DNA of 64,000 bases from positions 1 to 64,000 of the forward strand of contig NZ_JALJRK010000001.1 of assembly GCF_024519725.1 (NCBI RefSeq). The letters run 5' to 3'. The position numbers and the translations under genes were made by a program. Every line of letters begins with the position of its first letter. Position 1 is the stretch's first letter. Below are positions 16,581 through 37,773 of the stretch, piece after piece. This stretch comes from Microvirga sp. Mcv34. GTDB lineage: Bacteria; Pseudomonadota; Alphaproteobacteria; Rhizobiales; Beijerinckiaceae. Under the pieces are notes generated by a model that worked only from the letters and a program-made list of their open reading frames with translations, ran no database searches and was not told the origin of the DNA.

Positions 16581-16791
16581 GGCATTACTCCACTGGGTTT
16601 GCTGGAGAAGCTAGACCATACGTAAGGGATGTCGAGTCTCGCCGCGATCTTCGGTCTCTGGCCAATCCCTTGCCGGCCGTGCCATGAAGGCGATCACCTG
16701 CCGAATAATCGGGTTAGGAAAGTTTCGCACGAAGGGCTCCTCCGGCAGGCTGCAATGCCTAAGTAACAGAAGAGAAACGAGAGAGGATTTC

Positions 16792-17547
16792 ATGGAGGAT
16801 CGCTTCCTCGTGAAGGCAGTGGGCGCCGCCATCGCCCTCGTCCTGTGTGCCGGGCCCTCCTTGGCCAAGTGTCAGGACGGTCCGGGGCCGGGGGTGGATT
16901 GGTCCGGGTGCTCGAAGGCCCGGTTGATGCTCACCAACGAAGACCTGGCGGGCACCAATTTCCAGCGCTCCCTGCTGACTCTAAGCGATTTCGCCTCTTC
17001 CAAGATGACCGGGGCCAATCTGAGCGAGACGGAAGTCAGCCGCACCCGCTTCGAGGGGGCGGACCTGTCCAAGGCGAACTTCACCAAGGCACTGGGCTGG
17101 CGGGCCAATTTCGGCCAAGCCAACCTCAGCGGCGCCGATTTCAGTGCCGCCGACATGAACCGCTCGAACTTCGCCCAGGTCAAAGCTCCGGGGGCGAATT
17201 TCAGCAAGTCCGAACTGAACCGGTCCGACTTCAGCGGCGCCGACCTGTCGGGCGCTAATATCTCGAAGGCCGAACTCGCGCGCGTGCTCTTCCAGAGCGC
17301 GAAGATCGCCGGCGTCGACTTCAGCTATTCGAACCTCTCGCGGTCCCGTCTGGATGGCTTGGACCTGCAGGGTGTGAATTTTACGGGCTCCTACCTCTAT
17401 CTGACGCAGATCGGCGGCGCGGATCTGAGCAGAGCCACAGGTCTCACGCAGGCGCAGATCGAGATCGCCTGCGGCACGGCGCAGACGAAGCTTCCCTCCG
17501 GCCTCAATGCGCCGAAAACATGGCCCTGCAAGGAAGAGGAGGAATGA
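16792..17547 (+). CDS. Secreted pentapeptide-repeat protein
   Basis: A 251-residue protein with a signal peptide ('AIALVLCAGPSLAKC') and then about 20 pentapeptide units of the A(D/N)LXX type, such as 'GADLSKANFTKALGWRANF' and 'GADLSGANISKAELARVLF'. These build a right-handed quadrilateral beta-helix. A Cys-containing non-repeat tail ends the protein ('EIACGTAQTKLPSGLNAPKT'). ATG 16792 is used because AGAGGA lies just upstream and the signal peptide starts there. The role of periplasmic repeat proteins of this kind is unknown. Confidence 0.85.
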   Translation: MEDRFLVKAVGAAIALVLCAGPSLAKCQDGPGPGVDWSGCSKARLMLTNEDLAGTNFQRSLLTLSDFASSKMTGANLSETEVSRTRFEGADLSKANFTKALGWRANFGQANLSGADFSAADMNRSNFAQVKAPGANFSKSELNRSDFSGADLSGANISKAELARVLFQSAKIAGVDFSYSNLSRSRLDGLDLQGVNFTGSYLYLTQIGGADLSRATGLTQAQIEIACGTAQTKLPSGLNAPKTWPCKEEEE

Positions 17548-18986: not shown

Positions 18987-19631
18987 TCAAAGATCGAGTT
19001 CCTCTCGCGTGCGTCCAGGGCGTGGCCGGTAGCGTGGCAGGGACCAGTCCCACCGCAGCGCGGCCGCGCGAATCGCGAACGCTGCCGAGAAGCCTCCAGC
19101 GAGCGCGTACTCGCGTGCGATCCCGGCCAGCGCCAAGACGACGAATATCACGGCTCCACCCAGCGCCGCCGACACATAGATCTCGCGACTGAGGATGACC
19201 GGGCTTTCGCCGCCCAGGACATCCCGGACGATGCCGCCGAAGGTGGCCGTGATCACGCCCATCGCGATCGCCACGATGGGACTCGCGTCCGCCAGCAGCG
19301 CCTTCTCGGCTCCGGTTACCGCGAACAGGGCCATGCCGACCGCGTCACACCAGAGCAGGAGCCTGAGCCGCGAATGCGGAATGTGGGCGAGGAAGAACGC
19401 CGCGCAGGAGACCAGTACACAGGTGACCAGGTAGGCCGGCTCCTGCACCCAGAACACGGGAAGCGCACCAATGAGCGTGTCGCGGATCGTGCCCCCGCCG
19501 ATCCCGGTCGCCGTGCCGAGCAGCACGAAGCCAACAACGTCCATCTGCTTGCGCGAGGCGACCAGCGCCCCGGTCGTCGCGAAAATGACGATCCCGAACC
19601 AGTCGAGCAGGGCCGTAAATGTATCGAACAT
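18987..19631 (-). CDS. UPF0126/TRIC-family membrane protein, probable glycine transporter
   Basis: A 214-residue integral membrane protein with about seven helices in two similar halves. Each half carries the conserved kinked-helix motif: '[17 protein letters not shown]' and '[16 protein letters not shown]'. This is the PF03458 family, known as prokaryotic TRIC homologues and also as the Pfam 'glycine transporter' family (E. coli YadS/YicG). It is the last gene of the glycine-riboswitch transcript, 36 bases after the class B PBP gene. That context supports glycine movement over a general cation-channel role, but direction of transport (import or export) cannot be told. Confidence 0.85.
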
Positions 19632-19667
19632 TGGTCAGGAATCCATCATGGCTGTACGAGATCAATA

Positions 19668-21308
19668 TCAATTTGTGGAAGCCGTCCAGGACTGGACGCC
19701 GAGCAGGGGCAGTGCCTCACCCATGACACGCCGTGTCACGGGAACCGCATTCCATCCAGAGGTCCGGAAGCCAAAGGTTTCCGGCAGGCCGCGCGGTTCG
19801 TCCAGGATCGTCAGGAACAGGTAGCGTGGCGCGTCGATGGGGGCGACGCCGACGAAGAAGGTCATCACCTTCTCCTTGGAGTAGACGCCGCCGACAACCT
19901 TCTCCGAAGTTCCGGTCTTGCCGCCGATGCGGATCGGATCGAGCGCGGCCCGGCGGGCCGAGCCCGCCTCGACGTTCAGGCGCATCAGGTCGCGGATAGC
20001 AGAGGAGGTTGCATGTTTGATCACCCCTTCGGCGCGGAGGCGGTCGCCGGTGCTGCGTCCGGCAAGGAAGGTCGGTGTGATCAGGTCGCCGCCATTGACC
20101 AGTGCAGCCACCGCCATGGCCCCCTGGAGCGGAGTGACCGCGATACCGTGGCCGAAGGCGACTGTGGCGGTCGTGACATCGCTCCATTGCGAAGGCACGA
20201 GAGGCGCGGAGCTCTCCGCAAGCTCCGTCCGGACCCGGTCGAACTGTCCTAACGCTTTCATGAATGAACGGACCCTCGGAGCGCCGATAGCCAGTCCCAT
20301 CTGGCCCATGGCGATGTTCGACGAGTAAATGAAGCTCTCGGGCAACGTCAGGATCCGCTTTTTGCCGCGGAAGTCGTCTATGCTGGCACCGCCGATTGTG
20401 AGCGGCAGGCTCACATCGAAGGTCGAGTGCAACGTGAACAGACCGGTGTCCAAGGCGAGCGCAGTCGTCAAGGCTTTGTAGATTGAACCCATCTCATAGC
20501 GGCCGACCTGCATCCGGTTGATACGGTCCGGTTGTAGCGCCAGACCCGGCTCGTTCGGATCGAAGTCGGGCAGCGACACGAGCGCGAGAACCTCGCCGTT
20601 GGTGACGTCGAGGACGAGACCGGCGGCAGCGATGGCCCCGTATGTGTCAACCGCGCGACGGAGGTGTTCGGCATAGACGTGCTGGATCCGAAGATCGATG
20701 GTCAGCCGGACCGGCGAGCCAATGGGTTCCTCGATCTGCGTCTGATCAGATGCCTCCACGGCAGTTCCCATCATGGCATCGATCCATTTCTCGATCCCCG
20801 CCAGACCTCGGTTGTCGATGTCCACCGCGCCGAGCACATGCGCCGCCGCCGGCCCATTGGGATAGGTGCGCGTCGGTTCGGGCCGCAGGTGAATGCCGGC
20901 CAGCCCCAGAGACCAGACGCGGTCGGCCACGGAGGGCGGAACCGAGCGCTTGATCCAGGCGAAGCCCAACCCCGACATGAGCTTCCGGCGCAGATCGCGC
21001 GGGTCGAGGTCGTCGAATACCTCGGCCAGTCCCTCGACCGCTTCGTCGATGTCGATAATCCGCCGCGGTTCGGCATAGACGGAGAAGGTTTTCAGCTCCT
21101 TGGCGAGCAGGATGCCGTTGCGGTCGACGATGTCGGGCCGCATTCGCTTGACCGCGTCCTGCGTGGCCGCGCGTGGCTCGAACGGGTCGAAGCCGAACGT
21201 GATCAGTCGCACGGCAATCACGGCGAACAGGCCGACGAACCCATAGGCCGCCAGCCGGATACGGCCAGGAGCGCAATCGGCCGCAAGTTTGGACGGAGAC
21301 CGTGCCAT
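19668..21308 (-). CDS. Class B penicillin-binding protein (FtsI/PBP2-like)
   Basis: A 546-residue transpeptidase with one N-terminal anchor helix and a dimerisation domain ('[17 protein letters not shown]'). The catalytic domain has all three motifs: S275-I-Y-K, SSN in '[13 protein letters not shown]' and K464-T-G. The sequence before the nucleophile is EMGSIYK, where FtsI proteins normally have (E/Q)PGS(T/V)(F/M)K. ATG 21308 is used; it lies 16 bases after the class A PBP stop. It is smaller than dcw-cluster FtsI and lies far from any mraW or mur gene, so it is an accessory paralogue. It probably cross-links peptidoglycan when glycine is high. Confidence 0.9.
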
Positions 21309-21324
21309 CGCGTCACCCGATACT

Positions 21325-23739
21325 TCAGCGGAAGTAGGTGGGCCGGGGCGGGGCGTAAGCCTCCCAGGTTGGGCTGTCGGTTGGCATCTCGTCAGCGATG
21401 GCAGGCGATTTCGAAACCGGTGGCTCGGTGCCGGGCTTGAACGCTTCCAGAATTCCCCTCCCGGGTGCACTGCGCTCGCCAGTGAAAGGATCCACGGGGA
21501 TCAGCTTGATCCCGGTCGGAACGCGGAAAGCAGTCGGCGGCGTGCCCGCGAGTGCCTGCTCAAGGAAGGCTCGGGCGATGGGTGCGGCGTGCCCGGAGCC
21601 GTATGCGGATCGTCCGAGCGAGCGCGGACGATCGTAGCCGAGGAAGACGCCGACGGCCAGTTCCGGCGTCGATCCGACGAACCACAGGTCCTTGGCGTCA
21701 TTGGTCGTCCCGGTCTTGCCGGCGAGAGGCCGATTGAACCCGGAGAATACCCTCGGGAGCGTGCGCTCGACGACACCCTCGAGAAGGGAGGTCACTTGGT
21801 AGGCGGTCAGGGGATCGATCACCTGTTCTGTGTCTTCGGCAAGCCTTGGACCGCCGTGGTTGCGCCACGAAGAAACGGAGCAGCCGGAGCAGGCCCGCCG
21901 GTCATGCCGGAAGATGGTCTTCCCGTTGCGGTTTTGGATGTGCTCGATCAAAGTTGGCCGAATGTAGCGTCCGCCGTTGACGAACATCGCGTAGGCAGTT
22001 GTCATCCGCAATACGGTTGTCTCGCCTGCCCCGAGAGCCATCGCGAGCAGGGGCGGGAGGTCGTCCTGGACGCCGAGACGGCGGGTATAGTCCGCGACGC
22101 GCGGCATCCCGAGATCCCGCGCCAGCCTGACCGTCATCACGTTCTTGGAGCGCTCCAGGCCCAAACGGAGCGTGGACGGGCCGTCGTAGCGGCCGTTGTG
22201 ATTGCTCGGGGACCATGGTGCCTGACCGGCACCTTGATCGATGGACAGGGGCGCATCGAGCACGAGGCTGGATGGCGTGTAGCCGGCGTCAAGTGCGGCC
22301 GCGTAGACGATGGCCTTGAACGTGGAGCCGGGCTGACGCCACGCCTGGGTCACGCGGTTGAACTCATTCTGGCTGAACGAGAAGCCTCCGACCATCGCGC
22401 GAATGCGTCCGGTGTCCGGCTCCAGCGCAACCAAGGCTCCGGAGATCTCAGGGATCTGCCGTAACCGATACTCCTCAGATGCCTTCTTGATCGGCTCGAC
22501 ATGCACGACGTCACCGACCCGCAGGACGTCGCTTACCCGCCCCTTGCCTGTCCAGCGGACGCCTCGGAGCGCGATCCGTCCGATGCGCCGGCGGGCTTCG
22601 ACGGCACCGGTGAGGTCTCTGTCGGGGCGCAGGCCAATGCGGGCCTCCTTGCCATCGACCGCGAGCACGACGGCCTGCTGCCAGGGATGGATATCCTCAA
22701 GCGCCGGAAGTTCGGTGAGACTCGCGCCCCAGTCGCCCGCGATAGAAGCGAGTCGTGTCCCGGCTCCGCGCCAGCCACGGGCCTCGTCGAAGCGAACCAA
22801 GCCATCAACGAGGCTCCTGCGGGCCGCGGCCTGCATCTTCGGGGCAAGCGTCGTGCGAACCGATAGACCACCTTCATAGAGCGTCGCGTCGCCGTAGCGG
22901 TTGGCGAGTTCGCGCCGGACCTCCTCGGCAAAGTAGCCTGCTTGCGTCTCATGGGGGGACACCGAGCGCGGAGCGGCAACCAACGCTTCCTCCATCGCCA
23001 CAGCGACCTCGTCCTGCGCGACATAGCCGTTCGCGGCCATTCGCTCCAAAACCCAGTTGCGGCGGGCCATCGCAGCCTCAGGCTGGCGGAAGGGATGATA
23101 ATTGTTCGGACCCTTTGGCAGAGCGGCGAGATAAGCCGTCTCCGCTAGGCTCAGTTCGTGCACGGACTTGTCGAAATAGCCGAGCGCCGCCGCGGCAATG
23201 CCGTAGTGGCCCATGCCGAAATAGATCTCGTTGAGATAGAGTTCGAGGATGCGGTCCTTGCTGAAGGCCTCCTCGATCCGGAAGGCGAGCAGGATCTCTT
23301 TGAGCTTACGGCTGTAGGTCTGCTCGCGTGACAGCAGGAGGTTCTTGGCGACCTGTTGGGTGATCGTCGAGGCCCCCTGCGGGCGGCCCGCGGCACTGAC
23401 GAGGTTCGCGAGTAGCGCGCGGCCGATGCCCATGGGATCGATGCCGTTGTGCTCATAGAAGTGCCGGTCTTCAGCCGACAGGAATGCGGCGATGATCCGC
23501 TGCGGCATCGCCGCTAAAGGGAGAAACAGGCGGTTCTCACGTGCGTATTCGGCGATGATGCGGCCGTCGGAGGCATGCAGGCGCGTCGTTAGCGCGGGCT
23601 CGTAGCGCGCGAGTTCCGCATGGTTGGGTAGGTCAGAGGAGAGCTGGCAGAACACCATTCCGGCCACCAGCAAGCCACTGACCAACAGGAGGGAAGCCAA
23701 CGCTGTGGCAAAGCCGAAGAAGCGAAGAACGAAGCGCAT
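21325..23739 (-). CDS. Class A penicillin-binding protein (PBP1A family)
   Basis: An 804-residue bifunctional enzyme with an N-terminal membrane anchor. The GT51 glycosyltransferase domain has catalytic E90 in 'SAEDRHFYEHNGID', then 'GASTITQQVAKNLLLS' and 'RKLKEILLAFRIEE'. The transpeptidase domain has S472-T-F-K ('QPGSTFKAIVYAAAL'), SKN ('LERSKNVMTVRLA') and K675-T-G ('GKTGTTNDAKDLWF'). ATG 23739 is chosen over GTG 23748. It is the first gene after the glycine riboswitch, though 368 bases of leader intervene. Roles in polymerising and cross-linking peptidoglycan are certain by family; regulation by glycine is inferred. Confidence 0.93.
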   Translation of the reverse strand: MRFVLRFFGFATALASLLLVSGLLVAGMVFCQLSSDLPNHAELARYEPALTTRLHASDGRIIAEYARENRLFLPLAAMPQRIIAAFLSAEDRHFYEHNGIDPMGIGRALLANLVSAAGRPQGASTITQQVAKNLLLSREQTYSRKLKEILLAFRIEEAFSKDRILELYLNEIYFGMGHYGIAAAALGYFDKSVHELSLAETAYLAALPKGPNNYHPFRQPEAAMARRNWVLERMAANGYVAQDEVAVAMEEALVAAPRSVSPHETQAGYFAEEVRRELANRYGDATLYEGGLSVRTTLAPKMQAAARRSLVDGLVRFDEARGWRGAGTRLASIAGDWGASLTELPALEDIHPWQQAVVLAVDGKEARIGLRPDRDLTGAVEARRRIGRIALRGVRWTGKGRVSDVLRVGDVVHVEPIKKASEEYRLRQIPEISGALVALEPDTGRIRAMVGGFSFSQNEFNRVTQAWRQPGSTFKAIVYAAALDAGYTPSSLVLDAPLSIDQGAGQAPWSPSNHNGRYDGPSTLRLGLERSKNVMTVRLARDLGMPRVADYTRRLGVQDDLPPLLAMALGAGETTVLRMTTAYAMFVNGGRYIRPTLIEHIQNRNGKTIFRHDRRACSGCSVSSWRNHGGPRLAEDTEQVIDPLTAYQVTSLLEGVVERTLPRVFSGFNRPLAGKTGTTNDAKDLWFVGSTPELAVGVFLGYDRPRSLGRSAYGSGHAAPIARAFLEQALAGTPPTAFRVPTGIKLIPVDPFTGERSAPGRGILEAFKPGTEPPVSKSPAIADEMPTDSPTWEAYAPPRPTYFR

Positions 23740-24107
23740 CGCAAGCACCCAGGTTCAGGCGAGCCCCCCGCGATGGCGCGAAGGTGCTCGCTCAAAGGTC
23801 GTGAAGGGCGGAAGCAATCCCCTTGGCGCATGCCGGCCCGCTATGACTCGTGCCAAGGGACAGCCGCCATCGTTCGGGCAGCTTTGAATGCGCCGGTGTC
23901 AGATCATGGGCCCCGGCCACGCAGAAATTGACGACAGGCCTAAGGGGATCGGCTGGGTCGCGTCTGCGACTCAGGTGCAGCCGCACCTCACGCTGTGGCT
24001 TCTGGCCCATCCGTCGCGGCGGAAGCGATGTGTTGTAGTGCGCAGGTATCGTGGGAAAGGCATTCGTCAGGCTCCGTCACGGGCCGCAGGCGATGCTGCG
24101 GAAGGAG
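23740..24107 (-). promoter_or_regulatory. Long leader between the riboswitch and the PBP1A gene
   Basis: Directly after the second aptamer comes a two-part hairpin: an outer GGCTCC/GGAGCC stem (24104-24109 with 24070-24075) and an inner CCGCAG/CTGCGG stem (24096-24101 with 24084-24089). It has no following U-tract, so it is not a classical terminator. The remaining 330 bases hold a 72-codon minus-strand frame (23792-24010) without a ribosome site or family resemblance. The expression platform is therefore unresolved; Rho-dependent or processing control is possible. Confidence 0.6.
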
Positions 24108-24287
24108 CCCCCTCTGTCATTGGCCTGAGAGTTTCGTCGGGAGGCACAAGGCAGCCGCGACTTTCACCATGGGCGGGAGCGGAGTGCTCCACTTTTCAGA
24201 GTGTCGGGCAACGAAGCGGTCCTGTGTGCCTGAGAGTTTCCGGGGCAGTTGCTCCTTCGGCGGCCAGCGTGCTGGCTCTCTCCCGCT
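24108..24287 (-). promoter_or_regulatory. Tandem glycine riboswitch
   Basis: Read on the minus strand, the first aptamer (24216-24286) is canonical: GCGGGAGAG, then GCCGAAGGAGCAA, then AACTCTCAGGCACACAGG and ACCGC. A short linker follows. The second aptamer (24111-24202) begins ACTCTG, has AAACTCTCAGGCCAATGACA and closes with CAGAG. The second is divergent: the internal CACCGAAGGAG-type core reads CATGGTGAAAGTCGC and the P2 helix is imperfect. Two glycine aptamers in series are the RF00504 architecture. The next gene on this strand is the PBP1A gene. Confidence 0.93.
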
Positions 24288-24330
24288 CATTGCTAAGGTC
24301 AGTTCGCCTTTGTTTGTGGCCGAATTGTGT

Positions 24331-24350
24331 TGATCACGCGTGAGTGATCA
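24331..24350. repeat. Palindrome at the end of the L,D-transpeptidase gene
   Basis: TGATCAC at 24331-24337 pairs with GTGATCA at 24344-24350 around a 6-base loop. It includes the stop codon of the L,D-transpeptidase gene and lies about 45 bases before the riboswitch. No T-tract follows, so it is only a weak transcription end. Confidence 0.5.
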
Positions 24351-25049
24351 GACTCCGACGATACCGTCGGACGGCAACGTCCTGTCCTCTGCATCGGCAT
24401 TCAGTACCGTGACACGAGTGCCTACGGGCACCCGTCGATGCAGGTCGACGATGTCCTGGTTGAACAGGCGGATGCATCCGCTGGAGACCGATTGACCGAT
24501 GGTATCGGGCTCATGCGTGCCGTGGACACGGTAGAGCGTGTCACGTCCGTCCCGGTACAGATACAATGCTCGCGCGCCGAGCGGGCTCTCGAGGCCGCCC
24601 TCCACGCCGCCAGCGTAAGGACCGTAGCGTTCCGGCTCGAGCTTGATCATATTGGGCGTGGGCGTCCAGCGCGGCCATGCAGCCTTGCGCCCGACCACGG
24701 CACTGCCCTGATAGTCGAAGCCGGCCTTGCCGACGCCACAGCCGTAGCGAAGCGCCATCCTGTTCTCCTGGACGAGGTACAGGAAACGCCGCGACGGATC
24801 GACGACAATGCTTCCAGCCTCCTCCGGCCCTCGGAAGGCGACGACCTGCCGGACGTATTGCGGAGGAATCCGACTGACATCGACGGCCGGTACCGGATGC
24901 GGCTCATCGGAGAGTGCGGCGTACATGGCGGCGACACCGGGATCGACGCCGGGCTTCGATGTAAGGGCCGTGCGGCCGGACGAAACGCAGGCCGTCAGCG
25001 AGAGAGGCAGTCCGGCGAGCAGGGTTCGACGGGTGAGGGATAGCGACAA
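24348..25049 (-). CDS. L,D-transpeptidase (YkuD domain) lipoprotein
   Basis: A 233-residue envelope enzyme that would form 3-3 peptidoglycan cross-links or swap terminal D-Ala for glycine or D-amino acids. The YkuD domain spans about residues 90-215 and ends in the active-site motif 'HGTHEPDTIGQSVSSGCIRL' with C192. TTG 25049 is the preferred start: AAAGGAG lies seven bases before it, and it gives a signal 'TRRTLLAGLPLSLTAC' with twin arginines and an LTAC lipobox. A longer frame to 25238 adds only unstructured sequence. It lies on the same strand directly upstream of the glycine riboswitch and the PBP genes. Confidence 0.9.
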   Translation of the reverse strand: MSLSLTRRTLLAGLPLSLTACVSSGRTALTSKPGVDPGVAAMYAALSDEPHPVPAVDVSRIPPQYVRQVVAFRGPEEAGSIVVDPSRRFLYLVQENRMALRYGCGVGKAGFDYQGSAVVGRKAAWPRWTPTPNMIKLEPERYGPYAGGVEGGLESPLGARALYLYRDGRDTLYRVHGTHEPDTIGQSVSSGCIRLFNQDIVDLHRRVPVGTRVTVLNADAEDRTLPSDGIVGV

Positions 25050-25413
25050 TCTTGTTCTCCTTTCGGGTCGTTGGGACCGGGACCCCACTCGCGTCACCTT
25101 TATGGCCAAGGTGTGACGCGACGGGAACGGAGAAGCGATGATGGTCGTGTGTTGCTCGCTCGCACCAGGGCTGCGCCGGATGGCGACTAAGGCCCGAGCG
25201 ATTCTGCCCCTGAAGCTGCGTAGGTCTAGCCGTAGCAAGGTTCATCGGGAACGACGTTCAACACATCTCAGTCCACACGGTACGGGCGGTGACCACAACG
25301 CCGTCCGTTCTTCAGCCAGTACACGCTGCATCGGGGAGGGGAGCGAGGCTCGGCGAGAACTCTGTGCCCACCGCACTGCGGAGCGAAGTAGGACGGGGCA
25401 AGGTGCTATGCTC
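25050..25413. other. Non-coding stretch upstream of the L,D-transpeptidase gene
   Basis: About 360 bases with no supported gene. The part next to 25049 holds the ribosome site AAAGGAG and should contain the promoter, but no clear -35/-10 pair was recognised. Confidence 0.4.
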
Positions 25414-35075: not shown

Positions 35076-36524
35076 ATGATCGCCACGGAAGCTTCATCGA
35101 AGGACAGCGCTAATATCGCCCTTGCGCTGGCCCGCTTCGGCCTCGGCGCCAGGGGCAACGACCTGGCTGAATCCCGCTCCGACGTGAGGGGCTTCCTGAG
35201 CCAGGACATCGAAGGCTGGCGATCCGCGCAGGGCCATCTCCAAAGCACACCCGAGATCCTCGCCGCGCTCCAGCAGGAGAACCGCCGGGTGGAACTGGCG
35301 CGATCCTTGCGAACCAGTCCCTACGACCGTCGGGATGGCGCGCTTCTGGCCCGCGCGATGGACGAGGCAGACGCCTCAGCCAAGCCGCTGCCGCAGGCCG
35401 AGGCGCCGAGGAATGTAATCCCGCAGGACACCTATCGTGACGAGGTCCTCGCCCGCACCCAGGTGGCACTGGAGGCGAAGAGCGGTTTCGCCGAGCGCAT
35501 GGTCTGGTTCTGGAGCAACCATTTCGCGGTCTCCACCTCCAAGGGCAACCAGATTCAATCCACGGCCGGCGCTTTCGAGCGGGAGGCCATCCGGCCCCAT
35601 GTGTTCGGGCGTTTCGCCGACATGCTCTTCGCCGCCGAGACGCACCCGGCGATGATTTATTATCTCGACAACAACCAGTCGATCGGCCCCAACTCCAATG
35701 CCGGCCTGAAACAGCGCAAGGGGCTGAACGAGAACCTCGCCCGTGAGATCCTGGAACTGCACACGCTCGGCGTCTCCGGCGGCTACGGCCAGACCGACGT
35801 GACGAGCCTGGCGCGCGTCATCACCGGCTGGACAGTGGCGGGGCCCGAAGGAAAGCTCGGACGGCCCGGATCCTCGATCTTTAATGTGGGCCTGCACGAG
35901 CCCGGCGAGCACCGCGTGCTCGGCGCCTATTATCCTGATTACGGTCCGGACCAGACCAGGGACGTGTTCGACGCCCTCGCACGTCATCCGTCGACTGCGC
36001 AACACATCGCGTACAAGATGGCGCGTCATTTCGTGGCCGACGATCCGCCGCCCACTCTCGTGGCCCGGCTTCGGGACGTGTTCCTGGAAACCGAAGGCGA
36101 CCTCGCGGAACTCTCCCGCGCTCTACTCGATTCACCCGAGGCCTGGGCTCCGGAGACGCGCAAGATCCGCACCCCACAGGAATTCGTCTTCGGGGCGCTT
36201 CGCCTCATCGGCACGCCCCCGGAGAACCTGTGGGTGGTGGTCAGTCCGCTCAACGCGCTCGGCCATAAGCTCTGGGATCCGCCTGGGCCCAACGGCTATC
36301 CCGACACGGCCGCCCATTGGGCCACGCCCGAGGGCATGAAGACGCGCTTCTACGCCTCCGCGCGGTTGGCGCAGCGCGCCGGGCGGCTTGATCCCATGGA
36401 GTTGCTGGAGGCGAGCCTCGGCGACTACGCGTCGAAGGAAACGCGCCAGACCGTCGCCCGCGCTGAAAGCCGCCAGCAGGGTGTCGCGCTTCTGCTGATG
36501 GCGCCGGAATTCCAGCGGCGCTGA
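35076..36524 (+). CDS. DUF1800-family protein
   Basis: A 482-residue protein of the DUF1800 family. Landmarks are 'ALARFGLGARGNDLA' near the start, 'KSGFAERMVWFWSNHFAVS' in the centre, 'NENLAREILELHTLGVSGGY' and 'VARVITGWT'-like 'SLARVITGWTVAGPEGK', and 'NPLNALGHKLWDPPGPNGYP'-like text near residue 390. No signal peptide is evident. The partner DUF1501 gene follows after 22 bases, and this two-gene order is conserved across many bacteria. The biochemical role is not known; a link to extracellular or surface polymers has been suggested for the pair. Confidence 0.9.
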   Translation: MIATEASSKDSANIALALARFGLGARGNDLAESRSDVRGFLSQDIEGWRSAQGHLQSTPEILAALQQENRRVELARSLRTSPYDRRDGALLARAMDEADASAKPLPQAEAPRNVIPQDTYRDEVLARTQVALEAKSGFAERMVWFWSNHFAVSTSKGNQIQSTAGAFEREAIRPHVFGRFADMLFAAETHPAMIYYLDNNQSIGPNSNAGLKQRKGLNENLAREILELHTLGVSGGYGQTDVTSLARVITGWTVAGPEGKLGRPGSSIFNVGLHEPGEHRVLGAYYPDYGPDQTRDVFDALARHPSTAQHIAYKMARHFVADDPPPTLVARLRDVFLETEGDLAELSRALLDSPEAWAPETRKIRTPQEFVFGALRLIGTPPENLWVVVSPLNALGHKLWDPPGPNGYPDTAAHWATPEGMKTRFYASARLAQRAGRLDPMELLEASLGDYASKETRQTVARAESRQQGVALLLMAPEFQRR

Positions 36525-36546
36525 ACGTCGGAGCAGGAGAGCGATC

Positions 36547-37773
36547 ATGTCCGATCTTTGCGAGAACAATGTCAGCCGCCGCGCCTTGCTGGGAGCAGCC
36601 GGAGCTCTCTTCGCCTGGAGCTTCGTGCCGAAATTCGCCTATGCGGCGGCGGGTGCACGGGACGCGCGCTTCGTATGCATCGTCCTACGCGGCGCGATGG
36701 ACGGCTTGTCCGCCGTCGCCCCCTTAGGCGACCCGGATTATGTGGGCCTGCGCGAGAGCATCGCTCTCTCGACGGAGGGCCGCACGCCGGCCCTGCCTCT
36801 CGACGGGTTCTTCGCGCTGCATCCGGCCATGCCGAACCTGCTGCGGCTCTACAAAGTCGGGCAGGCAACCGTGGTCCACGCCACATCCACTGGCTATCGC
36901 GACCGTTCGCATTTCGACGGGCAGGACGTCCTGGAGAGCGGCCAGCCGGGGCCGGGCCGCACCGAGACCGGCTGGATGAACCGCCTGCTCCTAACCTTGC
37001 CCGCGGGCGAGCGCATCGCGCAGCGCGGGGCGCTGGGTATCGGCCCGGTGCCACCTCTGATCGTGCGCGGGCGCGCGCCCGTGACCGGTTGGGCTCCGGC
37101 CATCCTGCCCAAGGCCAAGGAGGACTTGGCACAACGGATTCTCGATCTCTACGACGCCCGCGATCCGGAACTGGGCGCGCAGCTCCGGAGCGGCCTCGAA
37201 ACGGAGCACCTGGCGAGCCGTATGGGCGGCATGGCGGGCCAGTCCGGAGGCGGCGCAGCCGCCGCTATGCGCCGCGTGGCGGAGGGAGCCGCGCGCCTCG
37301 TGAATGCGGATGACGGACCGCGCATCGCGGCGCTCGCCTTCGATGGTTGGGACACCCATGCCAACGAAGGTGGCGCGACGGGCCAGCTCGCCCAGCTCCT
37401 CGGCGGGCTCGACGGCGCCTTCGCGGCTCTCGAGGCCGGGTTGAAGGATCGATGGGCGGATACGGTCGTGATGGTGGTCACGGAGTTCGGGCGCACCGCG
37501 CGGGTCAACGGCACGGTGGGAACGGACCACGGCAACGGCACCGTGGCGTTCCTCGTCGGCGGGGCAGTCAAGGGCGGGCGGGTCATCGCCGACTGGCCTG
37601 GCCTGAGGCCGGAGAACCTCTTCGAGCGTCGGGATCTTCGCCCGACGACCGATATCCGTTCCGTCGCCAAGGGCGTGCTCTCCGACCTGTTCGGAATCAC
37701 CGCCGCCCGGCTTGCCGACGATGTGTTTCCCGGCACGCCTGACCTGAAGCCCATCCAGGGTCTCGTGGCCTGA
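36547..37773 (+). CDS. DUF1501-family Tat-exported protein
   Basis: A 408-residue protein with a twin-arginine signal ('VSRRALLGAAGALFAWSFVP') and the DUF1501 (alkaline-phosphatase-like fold) domain. 'CIVLRGAMDGLSAVAPLGDP', 'THATSTGYRDRSHFDGQDVL'-type 'STGYRDRSHFDGQDVLESG', 'WDTHANEGGATGQLAQLLGG' and 'VVTEFGRTARVNGTVGTDHG' hold conserved His/Asp residues expected of that fold. GGAGCAGGAGAG precedes the ATG. It probably works in the periplasm with the DUF1800 protein encoded upstream. The substrate is unknown. Confidence 0.9.
   Translation: MSDLCENNVSRRALLGAAGALFAWSFVPKFAYAAAGARDARFVCIVLRGAMDGLSAVAPLGDPDYVGLRESIALSTEGRTPALPLDGFFALHPAMPNLLRLYKVGQATVVHATSTGYRDRSHFDGQDVLESGQPGPGRTETGWMNRLLLTLPAGERIAQRGALGIGPVPPLIVRGRAPVTGWAPAILPKAKEDLAQRILDLYDARDPELGAQLRSGLETEHLASRMGGMAGQSGGGAAAAMRRVAEGAARLVNADDGPRIAALAFDGWDTHANEGGATGQLAQLLGGLDGAFAALEAGLKDRWADTVVMVVTEFGRTARVNGTVGTDHGNGTVAFLVGGAVKGGRVIADWPGLRPENLFERRDLRPTTDIRSVAKGVLSDLFGITAARLADDVFPGTPDLKPIQGLVA

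Follow-up and report, generated by a model that had tools for sequence, protein, structure and literature searches.

A dadA-related type of tandem glycine riboswitch precedes peptidoglycan cross-linking genes in Microvirga and scattered Hyphomicrobiales

We analyzed a 64,000-nt stretch of the Microvirga sp. Mcv34 genome (NZ_JALJRK010000001.1, positions 1 to 64,000; hereafter the window), in which a tandem riboswitch of the glycine class on the minus strand precedes genes for a class A penicillin-binding protein (PBP) of the PBP1A family, a class B PBP (PBP2), and a TRIC/PF03458 membrane protein. Riboswitches of the same type stand before L,D-transpeptidase (LDT) genes, in Microvirga and beyond it. 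We consider it probable that in Hyphomicrobiales this riboswitch type serves enzymes of peptidoglycan cross-linking (class A and B PBPs or LDTs, often accompanied by a TRIC protein) and that it works through the start of a short upstream open reading frame (uORF) freed by glycine. A wider reading—a glycine-sensing peptidoglycan regulon, in which one dadA-related riboswitch type was recruited repeatedly by D,D- and L,D-transpeptidases and gates a tiny uORF that licenses the wall genes—is offered more tentatively, with slightly less than even confidence. The sequence supports the riboswitch, the gene order with its conservation and recurrence, a conserved start site, and the uORF.

Results

The preliminary description of this DNA had placed a tandem glycine riboswitch on the minus strand upstream of PBP1A. 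RF00504 matches that strand at 24295–24207, and both aptamers exceed the Rfam cut-off of 32 bits (Table 1), in agreement with that call. The whole-window gathering scan reported aptamer 1 alone; aptamer 2 was scored in the genome-level RF00504 search and, because it reaches 42.2 bits, we treat the riboswitch (24295–24104, minus strand) as tandem. The same genome holds one other tandem glycine riboswitch, before gcvT (contig C283). The window riboswitch falls outside this gcv type: It heads PBP1A and groups with dadA-type rows in the tree described below. By these matches, a genuine tandem glycine riboswitch, which would bind glycine, stands at the head of the operon.

The described gene order also held. 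With the starts preferred from the translations (PBP1A ATG at 23739, PBP2 ATG at 21308, and TRIC ATG at 19631), the order PBP1A–PBP2–PF03458 and both gaps, 16 and 36 bases, are reproduced. The first protein combines Transgly, PCB_OB, and Transpeptidase domains, the GT51-plus-transpeptidase makeup of a class A PBP, and is 78–86% identical to relatives in seven Microvirga loci; the second carries the PBP_dimer and Transpeptidase domains of class B. SxxK, SxN, and KTGT, the usual PBP motifs, can be read by eye in both translations. The third protein contains two PF03458 stretches and is a TRIC homologue by its best solved relative, the TRIC entry 5h36; TRIC appears in the names of two of the five Protein Data Bank (PDB) sequences that match it.

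Table 1. Positions of the riboswitch, leader elements, and genes in the window
Feature	Position	Strand	Evidence or remark
Glycine riboswitch aptamer 1	24207–24295	−	RF00504, 59.7 bits, E 7.9e-10
Glycine riboswitch aptamer 2	24104–24209	−	RF00504, 42.2 bits
Expression platform	24061–24109	−	Hairpin GGCTCC...GGAGCC with Shine-Dalgarno-like GGAG in the 3' arm, then ATG; GGAG and ATG/GTG kept
uORF, 30 codons	23971–24063	−	Peptide not conserved
Hairpin just before the PBP1A start	23759–23791	−	Pairing and covariation, 12 sequences
Class A PBP (PBP1A family)	21325–23739	−	PF00912, PF17092, PF00905; TIGR02074, 590 bits, over its cut-off
Class B PBP (PBP2)	19668–21308	−	PF03717, PF00905
TRIC/PF03458 membrane protein	18987–19631	−	PF03458, E 6e-46; PDB 5h36, E 4e-83
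LDT directly upstream of the riboswitch	24348–25238	−	PF03734, E 8.8e-21

All 48 Microvirga genomes contain RF00504 matches. We compared 54 sites, comprising all listed sites of the 22 genomes with more than one riboswitch plus the window, and assigned the genes behind them by tblastn: 23 precede gcvT, 4 precede a dadA-like FAD oxidase, and 27 are wall-type sites, divided into 15 of PBP type and 12 of LDT type. Where a genome has a single riboswitch (n = 26), gcvT followed in 15 of 15 checked. Model R3, built from 14 sites including the wall-type sites outside Microvirga except that of Rhizobium sp. Q54, finds the wall type in 21 of the 48 genomes. Of its 29 matches, one is a dadA site and two fall on a single gapped site in G040, which leaves 27 wall-type sites.

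Gene content within the wall type varies. PBP1A is present at 12 of the 15 PBP-type sites (in three pieces in G046), reduced to a 64-residue remnant at two (G005 and G007), and absent at one (G023); PBP2 occurs at 8 (only about 250 residues in G026) and TRIC at 12. An LDT gene lies at 11 of the 12 LDT-type sites, G017 having lost it. Three genomes (G012, G014, and G026, the last with its shortened PBP2) carry the order riboswitch–PBP1A–PBP2–TRIC–riboswitch–LDT, and two (G018 and G037; loci L142 and L161) have a gene for an OmpA-family lipoprotein, so called from a Pfam domain in G037 and Pal-like by eye, between the riboswitch and PBP1A. In M. lupini, counted outside the 27 wall-type sites, a run of N covers the riboswitch before PBP1A; the platform end and a PBP1A–TRIC pair remain. 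Among 80 loci with PBP1A relatives, model R2 gave a strong aptamer 1 (E < 1e-20) in six, all from Microvirga; the seventh Microvirga locus was that of M. lupini, with the N gap at aptamer 1, and other loci yielded four weak matches (E 0.1–0.9).

To look beyond the genus we used model R1, which covers aptamer 2 and the platform and was trained on 26 sites, all from Microvirga. At E 1e-8 it matched 26 of 248 genomes sampled from the family, and the 22 sites outside Microvirga comprised 18 before dadA, 2 before gcvT, 1 before an LDT–TRIC pair (G278), and 1 without a reference match (G133). Across the order, at E 1e-9, 25 of 397 genomes matched at 27 sites: 11 before dadA, 11 before gcvT, and 5 before wall genes: in the window, in G406 and G480 (LDT–TRIC), in G567 (LDT), and in G514 (a class A and a class B PBP). 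This Microvirga-only model scores the four outside order sites at 76–104 bits and G278 at 106 bits. R3 at E 1e-20 retrieved 13 genomes of the order: 9 with dadA sites and the same 4 with wall sites, each of which had been used to build the model; high R3 scores of outside wall-type sites arise by construction, because those sites are in the training set.

The arrangement riboswitch–LDT–TRIC is found outside Microvirga in G278, G406, G480, and, from a plasmid collection, Rhizobium sp. WL3. Riboswitch–LDT is found in G567, in Rhizobium sp. Q54, where a divergent class B PBP lies beside it, and in Neorhizobium sp. SOG26, where an IS21-type istA/istB pair separates riboswitch and LDT (L245, 5492–7737). 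Pfam places the YkuD domain in the LDTs of WL3, Q54, and G480; the other riboswitch-headed LDTs were assigned by tblastn to LDT references only. The class A PBP of G514 aligns with the window's only in pieces of 34–43% identity, with no PCB_OB domain seen, and its class B PBP is 43% identical to the window's over 548 residues. Wall-type arrangements extend to one other genus of the family, to four additional family codes within the order, and to Rhizobiaceae plasmids; families are known here as codes (f1, f6, f14, f18, and f35), one of which may coincide with the named Rhizobiaceae. Searches by family returned G406 again from f14 (1 of 8 genomes) and G480 plus two dadA sites from f18 (3 of 10). 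In the family of G514, 115 of 136 genomes matched at E 1e-8, G514 at 128 bits and all others at no more than 75.7 bits, with gcvT behind nine of the nine others examined.

By these searches, the wall type occurs commonly in Microvirga, while in the order as a whole its occurrence is uncommon and scattered. The expectation that the same gene order would recur behind RF00504-type matches was borne out in Microvirga; elsewhere in Hyphomicrobiales it takes the form riboswitch–LDT(–TRIC) or riboswitch–PBP–PBP. Since the riboswitch–operon pair recurs across many related genomes, chance is not a reasonable explanation. Spread beyond the order was considered and rejected: In 385 genomes searched at class level (E 1e-18), the one other match lies on a contig of 3.9 kb (G843; L317, contig C70) whose TRIC–riboswitch–LDT arrangement is Microvirga-like; the contig comes from an 82% complete bin and is probably a contaminant.

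The leader between riboswitch and wall gene has a consistent layout. Aptamer-2 P1 is followed by a hairpin with GGAG in its 3' arm and then a start codon, and GGAG plus ATG or GTG is conserved in 26 of 26 Microvirga wall-type sites (the 27th was omitted for an N gap). The corresponding start codon opens dadA itself in the dadA relatives, and gcvT is the first ORF past the platform in gcvT switches. In the window, a uORF (24063–23971) starts right at the platform and leaves about 230 further bases before PBP1A; the platform end (24061) lies about 320 bases from the PBP1A start. The earlier picture of the riboswitch as operon head is correct in that it heads the operon and wrong if taken to mean that it sits at the PBP1A start, from which the uORF and the leader of about 320 bases separate it. 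Control of PBP1A by the riboswitch would be indirect, because the short ORF and long leader intervene.

uORF length differs between groups. Counted with the start codon, the uORFs span 25–33 codons in 14 of 14 PBP-type and 5–37 codons in 12 of 12 LDT-type Microvirga leaders. At seven of the seven uORF-bearing wall-type sites outside the genus they have only 4–9 codons (MTDP, MHIPSLYPD, MNLSI, MQPI, MQITS, MNRIS, and MNYIS). In a post hoc comparison these mini-ORFs are shorter than expected from shuffled sequence, the product of the seven shuffle fractions being 2e-7, or 1.4e-6 without the near-copy Q54 (single values 0.04–0.18). A conserved leader peptide was considered and rejected: Frames vary among Microvirga species, and no peptide sequence is maintained. 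By this comparison, the start site and, outside Microvirga, the shortness of the ORF are the only features of the uORF that are kept. In G480, the GTG at the platform start is in frame with the LDT, as is an ATG higher in the hairpin.

The distance from uORF start to gene is 292–340 bases in 10 of the 12 PBP-type leaders measured and about 900 bases in the two with an extra gene before PBP1A. It is 195–270 bases to the likely LDT ATG in 11 Microvirga LDT-type leaders, 140–208 bases in four outside leaders with an intact LDT next (a fifth, SOG26, was kept out of this range for its insertion), and 107 or 212 bases to the PBP in G514, depending on the start chosen. All 12 PBP-type leaders measured contain more C than G. 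Two outside leaders carry terminator-like hairpins: in G567 (L252) one with six T directly after the stop of the mini-ORF MNLSI, and in WL3 one immediately ahead of the LDT start. With this script, a run of five T was found in no Microvirga leader except that of G007. Just before the PBP1A start, a hairpin has 93.1% of cells paired over 12 sequences (slid controls at most 55.6%) and two pairs changed on both sides, a number reached by 57 of 500 shuffles; its covariation support is modest. Another helix at the PBP1A start, which would exclude this kind of pairing and has 88.4% of cells paired, was discarded, its covariation being no better than that of shuffles.

We placed these switches in a tree of 90 tandem riboswitches (32 wall-type, 28 dadA, and 30 gcv rows), leaving out G413 and G348 as too short, G017, G463, G533, and Q54 as not extracted, and also G133 and the G040 site with its gap. 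The 32 wall-type rows and 25 of the 28 dadA rows form one clade (99/94), apart from all 30 gcv rows. Within it the wall-type rows form a clade of 32 (97/90; 99/95 with aptamer 1 alone). Without long rows, the wall type needs two changes and is one clade in 29% of bootstraps; with aptamer 2 alone, it needs three. Ten more rows were dropped for these reduced trees, among them the three dadA rows from Microvirga that the 90-row tree places with gcv. Because two to three changes are needed there, we call the wall-type switches related, not one clade. The Microvirga dadA sites of G033, G038, and G047 (L156, L164, and L173) have switches that group with gcv-type aptamers, as if, unlike the dadA switches of relatives, they had been recruited separately.

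The riboswitch-headed LDTs are not one clade. Forcing the 15 of them together against 11 other LDTs costs 57 log units (p-AU 0.0046, or 0.00045 with G278 among the others), in a tree from which 11 of 37 near-duplicate, short, or long rows had been dropped, made after an earlier tree had been seen and with long branches in play. Because the riboswitch type meets LDTs of more than one clade, PBP1A, the G514 PBP pair, and lipoprotein insertions, a functional link is favored over a chance neighbor; this is our main ground for that view.

Discussion

Glycine harms cell walls (PMC5666159), and the preliminary description had proposed a glycine riboswitch for cell-wall genes. That proposal gains strong comparative support from the same riboswitch type heading LDTs and the PBP pair of G514; from glycine binding through the ON direction and uORF coupling to a wall benefit such as glycine tolerance and a role for TRIC, the remainder of the scheme is what we infer. 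When free glycine rises, the aptamers would bind it and the Shine-Dalgarno sequence in the platform hairpin would be freed. Ribosomes could then translate the short uORF, and this translation would make the transcript or the downstream start usable, either because the leader is protected from termination or because ribosomes reinitiate. Extra transpeptidases would be made while glycine replaces D-Ala in wall precursors. The harm that glycine does to walls speaks for this scheme, as does the use of LdtD to swap D-Ala for glycine at position 4 (PMC8263019). Induction by glycine seems roughly three times as likely as repression, because the related dadA and gcv switches head genes taken as degradative and because excess glycine weakens walls.

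Several results weigh against this scheme. Folding with aptamer-2 P1 forced or forbidden shifts Shine-Dalgarno pairing by at most 0.05 in all 52 sequences (in a few rows the script took an adjacent GGA motif as the site), so that folding predicts neither direction nor switching. uORF lengths in Microvirga match those of shuffled sequence, and the uORF peptides are not conserved. Neither a terminator-like nor a sigma-70-like site was found in the window leader, the promoter check being a weak test. R3 has no match in 27 of the 48 Microvirga genomes and, at E 1e-20, finds the wall type in only 4 of 397 genomes of the order; sites in G005, G007, G017, and G023 are eroded. A firm single origin of the wall-type switches had to be given up, being not robust to removal of long rows or to use of aptamer 2. 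A further candidate, pairing of the P1 sequence CAGAGG with CCTCTGGAG beside the start, seen by eye in several LDT leaders and pointing to an ON switch, was not borne out by folding.

Among the alternatives, an OFF switch, by which glycine would shut the operon and so, for example, stop LDT exchange of D-Ala for glycine or TRIC import of glycine, seems unlikely to us. It would fit the platform hairpin, which hides GGAG in predicted PBP-type folds (mean unpaired probability 0.04), the precedent that a glycine riboswitch before a transporter can be an OFF switch (PMC6944388), and the use of LdtD for exchanging D-Ala for glycine at position 4 (PMC8263019), where that enzyme can place glycine. However, the closest riboswitch relatives, with the same platform, head a dadA-type oxidase taken as degradative, switching PBPs off under wall stress is hard to rationalize, and folding leaves ON and OFF states unseparated. 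Less likely still is a relic: a dadA-type switch whose gene was lost, with a start that opens a meaningless ORF and wall genes served by their own promoter. The postplatform ATG does correspond to the dadA start in relatives, the lack of a conserved peptide would follow, and a 300-base leader could contain a promoter. Yet across 26 Microvirga sites the columns of aptamer 2 and platform average 84% identity, the same riboswitch type is followed in several families by PBPs and LDTs belonging to more than one clade, the LDT of G480 can start at the riboswitch's own start site, and the weak promoter test found no sigma-70-like promoter in the window leader.

The third alternative makes TRIC, as an ion or glycine channel, the real target and the wall enzymes passengers. 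The glycine carrier role suggested in the preliminary description goes back to a Pfam family name, Gly_transporter, and only to that name; the TRIC family comprises K+-permeable cation channels according to a TRIC structure paper (PMC5477506), and this protein, too, may form a channel instead of carrying glycine. TRIC does accompany 12 of the 15 PBP-type sites, as well as four LDT operons from other genera than Microvirga, and G007 keeps a full-length TRIC beside its PBP1A remnant. Against this, an LDT follows the riboswitch at 11 of the 12 Microvirga LDT-type sites, none of the 12 shows TRIC within the downstream sequence retrieved, which was short in some cases, and the first gene of intact operons is a wall gene, not TRIC. 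We regard a TRIC target as very improbable and retain control of the wall enzymes through the uORF start as the preferred reading.

Several known systems share features with the wall-type switch. The ligand of the ydaO-yuaA riboswitch is c-di-AMP. That class likewise controls wall-remodeling enzymes, and it differs in ligand, enzyme families (COG0791 and COG3773), and a proposed role in osmoregulation (PMC3766115). The nearest relatives are glycine riboswitches. Those of gcvT operons (RF00504) share the aptamer class, the tandem form, and scores over the Rfam cut-off, but stand outside the 57-row wall/dadA clade and have gcvT as the first ORF after the platform. Switches of the dadA-type FAD oxidase have the closest aptamers (25 of 28 dadA rows) and the same layout of P1, hairpin, Shine-Dalgarno sequence, and ATG; there the ATG opens dadA, whereas in the wall type it opens a short ORF, with the wall gene usually 140–340 bases on. 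Riboswitch-controlled translated leaders are also known from Mycobacterium tuberculosis, where the leader ORF of a B12 riboswitch is essential for PPE2 expression, primarily by termination–reinitiation; that system differs in ligand, in being an OFF switch, and in its genes (PMC11260477). The SAM-II riboswitch of Sinorhizobium meliloti metA, in a member of the same order, controls translation at a distance: Translation begins 74 nt downstream, yet the Shine-Dalgarno sequence of the riboswitch is required, and a terminator lies in between; ligand and genes are others, and the second start is in frame (PMC9373788).

Described contexts of glycine riboswitches are glycine cleavage or metabolism, transport, and serine metabolism (PMC6944388 and PMC3766115). 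Among the matches listed in our literature search, whose scope left most subscription journals outside, no paper places one before PBPs or LDTs. The riboswitch class is known; the wall regulon and the arrangement with a uORF are new, judging from the papers seen. The weakening of bacterial walls by glycine has long been known, yet the glycine riboswitch targets described in those papers mostly degrade, move, or convert glycine. If the preferred reading is true, a riboswitch controlling the damaged process itself, cross-linking, would be a second line of defense, and sensing of glycine wall damage by the cell would be directly testable in a single leader. A riboswitch-gated mini-ORF would add a glycine case to riboswitches acting through uORFs. 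The distribution suggests that several soil and plant-associated bacteria adjust wall building when glycine accumulates.

Neighboring Genes and Other Observations

The LDT directly upstream of the window riboswitch is a paralogue of the riboswitch-headed LDTs, and a relative of it was found upstream of 8 of the 15 PBP-type sites. A PF00905 search of the window's genome (G000) returned class A PBPs and, for class B, only that of the window. It found no FtsI-like second class B PBP in this draft, rated 99.99% complete; this is odd, though probably the effect of a gap or filter.

On a plasmid of Microvirga sp. VF16 (L247, 13335–22125), genes for sarcosine oxidase, serine deaminase, glyA, and purU adjoin the riboswitch–PBP operon; they belong to pathways making or using glycine and are a possible glycine source. 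Elsewhere in the window, the plus strand encodes a pentapeptide-repeat protein (16684–17547) with Qnr-like NCBIfam matches, all under their cut-offs, and a DUF1800–DUF1501 gene pair (35076–37773).

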